DNA of 8,454 nt. Origin: Holophagales bacterium (GTDB taxonomy: Bacteria; Acidobacteriota; Holophagae; Holophagales; Holophagaceae). Shown here in pieces: positions 69 through 8,338 of the stretch. The stretch covers positions 1 through 8,454 of the forward strand of contig JAITFL010000033.1 of assembly GCA_031281385.1 (NCBI GenBank), in the 5' to 3' direction. The translations under genes were made by a program, and so were the position numbers. The number at the start of each line of letters is the position of its first letter. Position 1 is the stretch's first letter. Under the pieces are notes generated by a model. The model was not told the origin of the DNA. It worked only from the letters and a program-made list of their open reading frames with translations, and searched no databases.

Positions 69-470
69 TAGGGATTAGGTTGCAGGAGGCAGGGACGCTC
101 AACCCGTATTGCCCTTGACCCCGACTCCCTAGCCTCTGTAGCCTATCTTTATTTGCTGCGGCTTGGAACTGGTGCGATTTAATCCAATCCCTAATAAAAT
201 CAATACTGATTCTATTAGGGGTTGGAATGCGCGACAGGATGTCGCGCCCGAAATGCGAAGCATTTCGTGTGGCAGAACGAAACTGAAATTTGCAGTCAGC
301 CGAAAAATGGGGAAAAGCCGACATTTCAAGAAATGCCCATCAGTACAGTCTTGCGTATCCGATGGGGCATCGGATACCAAGAGGGCGAGCCGCGCCTCGC
401 CACAGCCGACTAATTCAAAATTGCATGGACGCAATTTTGAATTAAAAATAGAATTAACTAGGAATCCAGC
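69..470 (+). other. Non-coding leader region upstream of the response regulator
   Basis: About 400 bases without a credible gene. Bases 69-180 hold no feature I can support; a TTGACC at 115-120 has no well-spaced -10 partner. From 181 the region is repeat A1. Short open frames across it on both strands fall in the hairpin repeat, and similar frames recur in the second copy, so they reflect the repeat and are not called as genes. Confidence 0.6.
181..455 (+). repeat. Repeat A, copy 1: multi-hairpin element upstream of the response regulator
   Basis: This stretch matches 6053-6328 along its whole length and folds into the same ordered hairpins. They are: 22-base arms 181-202/207-228 with a 4-base loop (one wobble, two mismatches); 229-236/240-247; 249-256/260-267; 307-311/336-340; 355-364/368-377 around GGG; 384-389/396-401; and 14-base perfect arms 411-424/431-444. 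The last hairpin ends 26 bases before the ATG at 471. No run of T follows any stem, so these do not look like intrinsic terminators. The family is not one I recognise. It could be a 5' UTR RNA element or a MITE-like dispersed repeat. Confidence 0.85.
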
Positions 471-1943: not shown

Positions 1944-2205
1944 CGCTCATCGAAGCCATGTCCATATATCTGCCCCAACATTGGGCCGTAAGCGAGGCGA
2001 GTACTCGGGGTCTGGGGTGCAAGCGGGGCAGCGCGAGAACAACGCTGAACAAGCTGAAAACGCACATGGCAGCACTGGCGACCAATGTGCCGCAGAGACT
2101 AACGGAGGATGTCTCGCGTATCCGGAGCGCAAGCGCAGGATACCGAGAACCTGCGAGCGATGCAACCGAGCGCACCCCAGTTTAGCATCCGGGCGGGCTC
2201 CATGA
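1913..2205 (+). repeat. Repeat B, copy 1: starts inside the regulator's 3' end
   Basis: Matches 7671-7958 and, in its outer parts, 3499-3645. Shared blocks include CATCGAAGCC near the 5' end, a GCGAGTACTCGGGGTCTGGGG-like core near 1995-2017, and AGCATCCGGGCGGGCTCCAT at the 3' end. A long-range pair of 9-base arms (2012-2020/2172-2180) encloses the interior. Inside it, 2112-2123 pairs with 2138-2148 with one bulged base. The similarity begins at about 1913, so the repeat overlaps the last ten codons and the stop of the preceding gene. Frames running through it are not conserved as protein between copies. Confidence 0.8.
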
Positions 2206-2297
2206 CCTTGCGCGAAATGAAGCAAATTGTCGGGCCGCGAATCCGAGGACGAAAAATAGAATCAGGAGCTAGAAACAAATTGAGCGCCCACGCTGAA

Positions 2298-3498: not shown

Positions 3499-3645
3499 TG
3501 CAAAACTCTCTACGCTTCCATCGAAGCCTTCTCCATGTATCCGCTCCTATTTAGGGCAGTAAGCAAAGCGAGTACTAGGGGTCTGGGGAGTAGCGAGGGA
3601 AGCGTTCGCATGCGAGCGCGACCGAGCGAATCCCCAGTTAGCATC
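3499..3645 (+). repeat. Repeat B, copy 3: short form after yceD
   Basis: It shares the B-family 5' block (CATCGAAGCC at about 3519-3528, GGGCAGTAAGC, GCGAGTACTAGGGGTCTGGG) and the 3' block TCCCCAGTTAGCATCCGG, but has a much shorter, unrelated interior. The outer arms CTGGGGA (3583-3589) and TCCCCAG (3631-3637) are kept. The arm starts lie about 50 bases apart, against about 160 in the other copies. The interior forms its own hairpin, 3602-3608/3613-3619. It starts six bases after the yceD stop. Confidence 0.7.
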
Positions 3646-3709
3646 CGGAAGATTTTTCCAAGCCTCGGCAGTGAACGCAACCGGCCGAAGGACAGTTGTT
3701 CCGAGCTTA

Positions 3710-6013: not shown

Positions 6014-6045
6014 CTTGCAGTCTAAAATTGGCTAGGTTTTGCAAG
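6014..6045 (+). repeat. Short repeat C, copy 3
   Basis: CTTGCA (6014-6019) and TGCAAG (6040-6045) are inverted with 20 bases between them, matching 3864-3895 in ends, spacing and most positions. Its right half (GCTAGGTTTTGCAAG) closely matches 2320-2334. It lies five bases after the pyrH stop and directly ahead of repeat A2. Confidence 0.5.
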
Positions 6046-6052
6046 AGGCTTT

Positions 6053-6328
6053 ATTCCAATTCCAGATAGAATCAGCCATGATTCTATCTGGAATTGGAAT
6101 GCGCGACACGGAGGTCGCGCCCGAAATGCGTAGCATTTCGTGAGGCCAGAACGAAGCTGAAATATGCAGTAGGACGAAAAGTTGGGGGAAGCCAACACTT
6201 CCGCAAAGCCCAACAGGGCGGCCTTGGTATCCGATGGGGCATCGGATACCAAGAGGCGAGCCGCGTCTCGCCGTAGCCGACTAATTCAAAATTGCATGGA
6301 GGCAATTTTGAATTAGAATTGGAATTAA
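6053..6328 (+). repeat. Repeat A, copy 2: multi-hairpin element upstream of the FAD oxidase
   Basis: It has the same ordered hairpins as copy 1: perfect 22-base arms 6053-6074/6079-6100 with a 4-base loop; 6101-6107/6114-6120; 6122-6129/6133-6140; 6181-6186/6209-6214; 13-base arms 6224-6236/6240-6252; 6255-6260/6267-6272; and perfect 14-base arms 6282-6295/6302-6315. The final stem ends 15 bases before the ATG at 6331. GAATTGGAAT recurs at both ends of the element (its complement opens the first stem at 6053), giving short terminal inverted repeats, as in MITE-like elements. Confidence 0.85.
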
Positions 6329-6330
6329 AG

Positions 6331-7665
6331 ATGAATAAGTATCTAGCCAAAATCCCCAATGCCGCAGTCATTGACCTGCCAGAGGCCCTAGAGTGCTTCC
6401 GAACTGATGAATCACACATAATCGGTGACTTGCCGCTGGCCGTAGTGAAGCCAAAAGGCCCAGACGCATTGAGAGCTTTGGTGAGCGTTGCCAAGGGGGA
6501 AGGGCTTACATTAGTTCCACGTGGAACGGGCACGGGGAAGGCGGGCGGGGCCCTGCCAGTGGGTGCCTCGATAGTTGTTGACCTCTCGGAATACCCGGGC
6601 GAGTTGAAAGCATCACCGGAAGCTATGGCACTCCGCGCACCCGCTAGCGTGTTTCTGAGGGACGCAAAGTCGGCGGCGTCCGAAAAGGGGCTATTTTATC
6701 CACCAGACCCAAATTCATGGGATCAATGCTCCTTTGGAGGCAGTTTGGCCACAAACGCCGGGGGGCCATGCGCGTGTAAGTATGGCGTGACGCGCCATTG
6801 GGTGCTCTCGGTAGATGCGCTGATGGAAGATGGCGAAATTCACCGTTTTGGGGTGGAAATAGTAAAAAACAACGCCGGGCCTAATATGACGCAACTTTTG
6901 GTGGGCAGCGAGGGCATCTTTGGGATAATCACGTCGGCGGCAGTGCGCCTCATACCAGCCCCAAAAGAGCGCGTTGCAATGCTGCTGCCCGTGTCGAGCT
7001 GGGGCGACCTGCTGGGCCTGCCCAGCCGCCTAGTGGGCGGCGGCCTAGTGCCAAGTGCGCTGGAATTTTGGGATCCTCAAGTACTTCAACACTTACGTCA
7101 ATTCGGCCCAGAGGAGGCTAAGAGCCTGCCCGGCGAGGCGCTGGCTATTCTCGAATTTGATGACGCAGGCTGCACGGGCGAAAAATTTTTGGGCGACTTG
7201 ATGGACTTTTTGGGCCCGCTGGCCGAACACGCACAAGCGGCTAAGGACGAGAGGCAGCGTGAGGCTGTTTGGGCCGTCCGCCGCCAAACAAGCACGATGC
7301 TAAAGGAACACTTCCCCCATAAAGTGAGCGAGGACATAGCAGTGCCAAGGCCAAAGATAGAGGCATTTTTCGAGGGCGCACAAAGGCTGGGGCTGCCCAT
7401 AGCCACCTACGGCCACCTTGGGGACGGCAACCTGCACGTCAACATCCTTGGCAAACTGGGCCGCAAAGAAATGGACGCCCACATAATGACCCTTTTCAGG
7501 CTGGTGCTGGAGCTGGGAGGCACCATCACCGGCGAGCACGGCATTGGCCTGGCAAAGAGGGACGCATTCCTGGCTCTGTCAGACCCTTGGCAGGTGCAGG
7601 CAATCAGAGCCATGAAGAAAGCTCTGGATCCGTGCGGCGTTTTCAATGCGGGCAAAATAATTTGA
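6331..7665 (+). CDS. GlcD-type FAD-linked oxidase (glycolate oxidase/D-lactate dehydrogenase family)
   Basis: A 444-residue flavoenzyme of the VAO/PCMH fold. The FAD-binding half shows VPRGTGTGKAGG (62-73) and PPDPNSWDQCSFGGSLATNA (124-143) followed by GG. The C-terminal half has YGHLGDGNLHVN (360-371), TGEHGIG (400-406) and DPCGVFNAGKII at the end, all typical of GlcD and D-lactate dehydrogenases, which oxidise 2-hydroxy acids. Substrate cannot be set from sequence alone. It is slightly shorter than most GlcD proteins. GlcE and GlcF are absent, so it may act alone or with other electron carriers. I chose the ATG at 6331; an in-frame TTG at 6292 lies inside the last hairpin of repeat A2 and would add 13 residues encoded by repeat sequence. 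GGAATT (6321-6326) is a weak ribosome binding site. Confidence 0.88.
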   Translation: MNKYLAKIPNAAVIDLPEALECFRTDESHIIGDLPLAVVKPKGPDALRALVSVAKGEGLTLVPRGTGTGKAGGALPVGASIVVDLSEYPGELKASPEAMALRAPASVFLRDAKSAASEKGLFYPPDPNSWDQCSFGGSLATNAGGPCACKYGVTRHWVLSVDALMEDGEIHRFGVEIVKNNAGPNMTQLLVGSEGIFGIITSAAVRLIPAPKERVAMLLPVSSWGDLLGLPSRLVGGGLVPSALEFWDPQVLQHLRQFGPEEAKSLPGEALAILEFDDAGCTGEKFLGDLMDFLGPLAEHAQAAKDERQREAVWAVRRQTSTMLKEHFPHKVSEDIAVPRPKIEAFFEGAQRLGLPIATYGHLGDGNLHVNILGKLGRKEMDAHIMTLFRLVLELGGTITGEHGIGLAKRDAFLALSDPWQVQAIRAMKKALDPCGVFNAGKII

Positions 7666-7670
7666 GTCCC

Positions 7671-7958
7671 TTGCAAATTTTTCTTCCAAACAGACATGGC
7701 TACATCGAAGCCATGTCCATGTATCTGTCACAACATAGGGCAGTGAACGAGGCGAGTACCCGGGGTCTGGGGAGCGAGCGGGGCAGCGCGAAAACGACGT
7801 TGAACAAGCTGAAACGCCCATAGCAGCATTGGCGACCAATGTGTCGCAGAGAACAACGGAGGATGTCTCGCGTATCCAAGCGCCAGCGCAGGATACCGAG
7901 AAGTTGTGAGCGATGCGACAAGCGAGTTCCCCAGTTCAGCATCCGGGCGGGCTCCATG
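7671..7958 (+). repeat. Repeat B, copy 2: after the FAD oxidase
   Basis: Matches B1 (1913-2205) over its length, with small indels. It begins TTGCAAATTTTTCTTCCAAA five bases after the stop codon. It carries an extra local hairpin, GACATGGCT (7693-7701) with AGCCATGTC (7709-7717). It keeps the outer arms CTGGGGA (7767-7773) and TCCCCAG (7928-7934), and the inner bulged stem 7866-7877/7891-7901. The ending AGCATCCGGGCGGGCTCCAT is identical to B1. Confidence 0.8.
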
Positions 7959-7966
7959 AACCGGCG

Positions 7967-8180: not shown

Positions 8181-8338
8181 CAACGCCCTTGACCATCGCT
8201 ACAGATTGGTATGCTTCACCTGCGCCTTCCATTCCGCTTTTAATGCAGCCTATCGCCGTAAAGTCTTCATTCCTTTTGGAAGAGTGCGGTAAATCCGTTG
8301 CGGGCATAAGTCTGCGCCCCCAGTGTATGTGATATCAG

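Follow-up and report, generated by a model that had tools for sequence, protein, structure and literature searches.

Two copies of a repeat, here called repeat A, stand in the window (the whole stretch of 8,454 nucleotides that was analysed), and each folds into a chain of hairpins in which several base pairs have changed on both sides. The locus raises the question of whether such compensatory changes mark a structured RNA or belong to a mobile element. We are highly confident that repeat A is a non-autonomous DNA transposon (MITE) that uses transposase supplied in trans and TNA targets, and that it is not a cis-regulatory RNA of its neighbours. It represents a new MITE family, which was not found in the literature searched with queries that could not target the family by name.

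Repeat A in the window and its paired changes

The window is a chromosomal piece with genes for a sigma-54 response regulator, a pilin-like protein, YceD, rpmF (identified by eye), plsX, pyrH and an FAD-linked oxidase. The closest relative of its PlsX was found in a Holophagales MAG (L001, 75% identity), followed by two Holophagaceae at 65% and 64%. The window and L001 have a common gene order from the response regulator through pyrH; in L001, repeat A is absent both ahead of the regulator gene and from the 159 bases available past pyrH. The repeat family was analysed in G001, the Holophagales MAG genome that contains L001.

Both window copies, A1 and A2, adjoin + strand genes and lie upstream of them (response regulator at 471, FAD oxidase at 6331); their parts are listed in Table 1. 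The extent given for the first copy in an earlier note, 181-455, was one to two bases off the element itself. The terminal inverted repeats (TIRs) of the family, TTCCAATTC and GAATTGGAA, are intact in A2 and degraded in A1, where none was recognised at one mismatch or less. In both copies the middle is ~100 bp longer than in the main G001 forms. We also observed that the right end of A2 places GGAA six bases ahead of the FAD-oxidase ATG (window 6321-6333), where it may act as the ribosome-binding site of that gene.

Table 1. Features of repeat A in the window, with the evidence for each where recorded
Feature	Position	Strand	Basis or remark
MITE copy A1 (272 bp)	182-453	+	sequence; covariance model match 179-269, 80.9 bits (A1 is in the model)
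Left target-site duplication TTA of A1	179-181	.	read off sequence; family rule TNA
Right target-site duplication TTA of A1	454-456	.	read off sequence; family rule TNA
A1 hairpin 1 (22+4+22; one A.A, one A.C, one T.G)	181-228	+	
A1 hairpin 2 (GCGCGACA gga TGTCGCGC)	229-247	+	
A1 hairpin 3 (CGAAATGC gaa GCATTTCG)	249-267	+	
A1 hairpin GTATCCGATG ggg CATCGGATAC	355-377	+	in middle module, absent from 166-bp G001 form
A1 hairpin 4 (GGCGAG ... CTCGCC)	384-401	+	
A1 hairpin 5 (TAATTCAAAATTGC ... GCAATTTTGAATTA)	411-444	+	
MITE copy A2 (271 bp), TIR TTCCAATTC ... GAATTGGAA	6054-6324	+	ends intact; covariance model match 6051-6142, 95.2 bits (A2 is in the model)
Left target-site duplication TTA of A2	6051-6053	.	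read off sequence
Right target-site duplication TTA of A2	6325-6327	.	read off sequence
A2 hairpin 1, 22 perfect pairs	6053-6100	+	
A2 hairpin 2	6101-6120	+	
A2 hairpin 3	6122-6140	+	
A2 hairpin GTATCCGATG ggg CATCGGATAC	6227-6249	+	
A2 hairpin 4	6255-6272	+	
A2 hairpin 5	6282-6315	+	

The double changes to which the earlier note had drawn attention are all present. When stem 1 was recomputed, C-G at 189-220 was found as T-A at 6061-6092, T-A at 192-217 as A-T at 6064-6089, and A-T at 193-216 as G-C at 6065-6088, while in a further stem A-T at 307-340 corresponds to T-A at 6182-6213. Three complementary coincidences in stem 1 between A1 and A2 have a chance probability of ~9e-4. The arm lengths claimed for this stem in both copies (22+4+22) also hold, with full pairing in A2 only; A1 has A.A at 182/227, T.G at 188/221 and A.C at 197/212, and single, pair-weakening changes thus coexist with the double ones.

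Compared with the G001 consensus, stem 1 of A2 shows five double changes, all Watson-Crick, and not one single change (P=1.6e-7 if the arms vary independently), and that of A1 shows six double Watson-Crick and three single changes (P=3.5e-6). The folding energy lies at z -7.8 for A1 and -11.6 for A2, with 0/200 shuffles as good for each copy. The covariation shuffles and covariance model R1 were based on the two window copies together with 12 copies selected from G001. Across these 14 selected sequences, all 500 shuffles stayed below the observed value for four of the five covariation measures, a control that ignores relatedness, and 350/500 reached it for the fifth. The changes are therefore genuine against a third sequence and against shuffles, and to this extent the claim that the fold is kept stands; they do not prove a kept RNA fold. 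The double changes are real, yet they are no demonstration of repeat A as a working RNA.

No Rfam family reaches its gathering score. The window matched just mir-4081, at 42.2 and 41.5 of 70 bits, one match per strand, and this identity was rejected for repeat A as a palindrome match below threshold on both strands. The earlier note had named two findings that would speak against its reading, transposon ends that explain the element and further copies altered in one arm alone, and both were found: the former as TIRs, 3-bp duplications, unoccupied sites and an insertion sequence (IS) with the same ends, the latter as 62 single against 4 double changes over 2465 pair cells.

A dispersed family and its insertion sites

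The core hairpin is matched 44 times in G001 when up to 3 mismatches are allowed, compared with 0 for the reversed pattern, and TNATTCCAATTC ends number 91, compared with 1. All 46 candidates scored there with model R1 also matched; their number was capped and is therefore a lower bound. Copies at contig ends may be counted twice in these figures. With the best 46 candidates of each genome taken under strict filters, the model had no match in any of 92 further genomes of the class. A search for viral, phage and plasmid carriers of the MITE gave 0 matches. In G002, a stretch of 23 nt identical to window hairpin 2/3 (L111, C8:713-735) was considered as a relative and rejected, but only as such, for it lies in a coding-looking stretch; it is possibly an old remnant. 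Nine TNATTCCAATTC sites in G002 and G004 were also set aside, two in G004 that share another repeat and seven that are unlike the MITE by eye. G004 has, in addition, a 37-nt match to hairpin 5.

The main G001 forms measure 163-166 and ~196-200 bp (163-200 bp overall), with stems of 22 bp in hairpin 1, 8 bp in each of hairpins 2 and 3, 7 bp in hairpin 4 and 15 bp in hairpin 5. The element is short and non-coding, as a MITE should be, and a transposase gene is too large for it, both at 163-200 bp in G001 and at 271-272 bp in the window. Seven solitary hairpins were also seen in G001 (L190, L199, L201, L206, L207, L214 and L239; stretches of 43-51 bp). Each is one end alone with a TIR on either side, and the 3-bp flanks are inverted in 4, direct in 1 and neither in 2.

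Variant counts were made on 54 of 76 model rows, those that reached 75 or more consensus matches, after blocks that were misaligned locally had been masked. Duplications and gene context were read from 27 model rows, two of them without readable ends, one of which (L184) is a hybrid with TCA...TCA. In the 43-row listing of copies, two rows are the opposite strand of an already listed palindrome.

Identical 3-bp flanks of the type TNA were found at 20 of the 25 G001 copies with readable ends, and the other 5/25 are without identical flanks. The duplicated triplets are TTA, TAA or TGA, the last of which reads TCA on the opposite strand, with the middle base free. The end search nearly fixes the left A and the right T of the flanks and leaves the central base free; this base agrees in 20 of the 23 copies with TNA at both ends, where 38% would be expected (p=1.7e-6). 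Unoccupied counterparts were identified for two copies. The joined flanks of L229 match L220 at 98/103 bases (23 left and 80 right of the junction), and those of L217 match L239 at 62/68 bases (42 left, 26 right). Both sites are paralogous and lie within other dispersed repeats. Given the duplications and the unoccupied sites, repeat A therefore inserts by transposition and duplicates TNA.

Other repeats were observed nearby. A second dispersed family occupies window 1948-2212, 3519-3648 and 7703-7966; its copies are 64-91% alike in pieces, and two have an internal GTATCC...GGATAC hairpin. Window 8200-8290 resembles, by eye, the G004 repeats L271 and L277 (CGCTTTTAATG and CGCCGTAAAGTC stretches), and is perhaps a third repeat family of the lineage. 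Repeats with TTGCAAAACCTC-type ends are found at window 6014-6049 and in L229/L220, and one such G001 repeat (~100 bp) carries a MITE and is the source of an unoccupied site (L229/L220).

A candidate source of the transposase

Five more TTCCAATTC ends in G001 run into sequence other than the MITE, and they were taken as ends of a candidate source IS (TTCCAATTCTAA): left ends at C44 and C110, right ends at C102, C130 and C161. All five are TNA-flanked, a feature that the end pattern used to locate them demanded. C44 and C110 are mutually identical, with an ORF that begins ~50 nt inside, and the left end of the IS equals that of the MITE for 17 nt. C102, C130 and C161 are alike, and their reading frame terminates in the TIR. 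Searches of G001 without the end pattern returned the same places only, with 2 matches for DNA (40 of 65 candidates scored) and 3 for protein.

The right-end frame (65 aa) scored 35.9 bits over 42 aa with the IS630 transposase model NF033545 (cut-off 100) and 27.1 bits with DDE_3 (cut-off 28.6). With both domain scores below cut-off, it is a putative C-terminus of an IS630-type transposase. The middle of the source IS was not found in G001, where only its two ends were seen, at contig ends, and we infer that left and right ends belong to one IS. Because its ends are shared with the MITE, an IS630-type insertion sequence with these ends and TNA flanks is, judged from sequence, the likely source of the transposase. 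The IS630-type protein has relatives in 8 further genomes of the class; the MITE was not found in these. On a viral contig, a more distantly related IS630-type element (L312, 44% identity over 63 aa) has perfect inverted ends with TTA on either side; no clear duplication was seen in the other relatives inspected.

The classical duplication of the IS630-Tc1-mariner group is given as TA (PMC7386202). The duplication here is TNA, which is unusual for IS630, and repeat A is therefore classed as a MITE with IS630-like ends and not filed as a standard IS630 MITE.

Another transposase, on C19 (DDE_3, 86 bits), first seemed decisive as the parent, the sequence adjoining it being identical to the MITE left end for 27 nt. 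It was ruled out by another copy of the same IS (C157, L281), which has a different flank and meets the IS at TA. The C19 IS, a different IS630-type element (L180 1-152), therefore appears to sit inserted within hairpin 1 of a MITE copy.

Pairing, competing explanations and known systems

Variants found in one copy should mostly post-date its insertion, and their frequency is the same in stem bases (36/5058) and unpaired bases (15/2077; p=1). Variants common to at least two copies are rarer in stems (13 over 119 stem columns vs 14 over 47 unpaired; p=0.005). Raw substitutions are also lower in stems (75/5058 vs 94/2077; p=4e-13), partly through a few columns polymorphic between subfamilies. 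Because these two classes are rarer in stems, pairing is under some constraint. Among the 26 copies in which 50 or more pairs were scored, only 5 are Watson-Crick throughout. An excess of G.U was considered as a sign of selection on RNA and rejected, since G.T numbered 18 and A.C 31 over all cells (p=0.085), the opposite direction; as distinct events, they numbered 16 and 23 (p=0.34). There is no tolerance of wobble on the + strand, and the surplus of A.C over G.T, owed in part to one shared variant, leans weakly towards wobble on the opposite strand.

Among G001 copies, 4 double Watson-Crick changes were counted, compared with 0.13-0.39 expected from independent hits, and in L233 a double change is accompanied by inversion of a hairpin loop. 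When templates are switched between inverted repeats, the footprint described is one of homogenised arms and an inverted spacer (PMC8604942), and such switching has been proposed as a mechanism for stem maintenance (PMC8794818). Between species, stem 1 differs mainly by double changes. Pairing is kept in the spreading lineage and not per site as RNA, and it is probably maintained in part by DNA template switching. The surplus of double changes and the L233 footprint therefore favour template switching, with selection on the lineage perhaps also at work; the present data do not separate the two.

A conserved structured RNA, such as a riboswitch-like leader or small RNA transcribed from the + strand with its pairs selected at each locus, would fit the strong folding of both window copies, their covariation beyond shuffles, their place upstream of + strand genes, and the scarcity of shared variants and raw substitutions in stems. 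We consider it very improbable in view of the target-site duplications and unoccupied sites, the equal frequency of one-copy variants in stems and unpaired bases, and the missing excess of G.U over A.C. Rfam offers no family at gathering score and only a sub-threshold palindrome match on both strands, and L001 is without a copy at the places compared. The gene context in G001, where the repeat keeps no constant orientation to genes, also speaks against such an RNA. Full-length copies are intergenic in 27/27 cases (crude ORF call, ORFs of 130 aa or more); 9 are at contig ends, and the 18 between two called genes comprise 7 convergent, 7 co-directional (4 in the same and 3 in the opposite orientation) and 4 divergent cases, where neighbour pairs at the same loci number 26 convergent, 84 co-directional and 22 divergent. 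In several full-length copies, two or three bases are shared with the end of a called ORF, as would be expected wherever a TAA or TGA target had been a stop codon.

Two other readings keep repeat A mobile and change its mover. The IS5/IS1031 group makes a 3-bp TNA duplication, and the TNA found here would fit a MITE whose mover is an IS1031-type transposase of the IS5 family, as would the four DDE_Tnp_1 (PF01609) matches in G001, three of them above cut-off and one a fragment ~75 bp from a MITE copy on C127. The IS630-type element would then have the same ends by coincidence or parasitism. This is unlikely, as an IS630-type frame is found three times, and a left-end ORF twice, beside these ends with their TNA flanks, and the perfect inverted ends of the related L312 element each adjoin a TTA. 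A RAYT (Y1) enzyme that spreads REP/BIME-like palindromes, or a palindromic element derived from IS200/IS605, would suit the many intergenic palindromes and the existence of solitary hairpins of ~50 bp. Such elements are not known to make a target duplication, whereas TNA is duplicated here, and we give this reading only the slightest chance.

We therefore return to the non-autonomous transposon. The MITE consists of five to seven short hairpins between its inverted ends, and a transposase from elsewhere, most likely that of the IS630-type IS with the same ends, moves it into TNA with duplication of the 3 bp. Inserted copies afterwards decay irrespective of pairing, and the perfect stems and both-arm changes would be a property of the copy lineage that goes on spreading. 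Replication in this lineage probably switches templates, so that one arm is rewritten from its partner, and selection on the element as a mobile unit perhaps helps to keep the stems. More tentatively, pairing could be selected in the transposing lineage only, the hairpin chain aiding its own spread as single-stranded DNA or transcript, with inserted copies free to decay, arms renewed by template switching, and an IS630 branch that duplicates TNA rather than TA.

The case offers a worked caution: compensatory double changes, usually taken as proof of functional RNA, occur here in a transposon whose inserted copies give no sign of selection for pairing. Dozens of insertions allow template-switch mutation to be told from selection. 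The analysis adds a MITE family from a Holophagales lineage and suggests that the IS630-type elements may include a branch that duplicates TNA.

Among known systems, RUP (repeat unit of pneumococcus) is short, high-copy and folded, with TIRs described as like those of the resident IS630-Spn1 (PMC3049150). Repeat A is likewise short, high-copy and folded, with TIRs as in a putative resident IS630-type element. It differs from RUP, which is 107 bp long and has a TA duplication, in its length (mostly 163-200 bp in G001, 271-272 bp in the window), its five or more separate hairpins and its 3-bp TNA duplications. BOX elements of Streptococcus pneumoniae are reported as modular and strongly folded, with TIR, TSD and a variable number of modules (PMC3049150). 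Compared by description, repeat A resembles them as a modular, strongly folded repeat with TIR and TSD; BOX has another host and is linked to ISSpn2, not IS630 (PMC3049150). For the cyanobacterial MITE Nezha, movement in trans is attributed to a resident ISNpu3-like IS with like ends (PMC3049150), and repeat A, again by description, shares the property of ends like those of a resident IS. A review describes MITE transcripts as forming stable stem-loops (PMC10969869). In the wider IS630-Tc1-mariner group, most Fot elements (Fot/Fot-like, pogo) are said to have 3-bp TAA rather than TA duplications (PMC7386202); Fot elements are eukaryotic and autonomous, whereas the duplication of repeat A has a free middle base.
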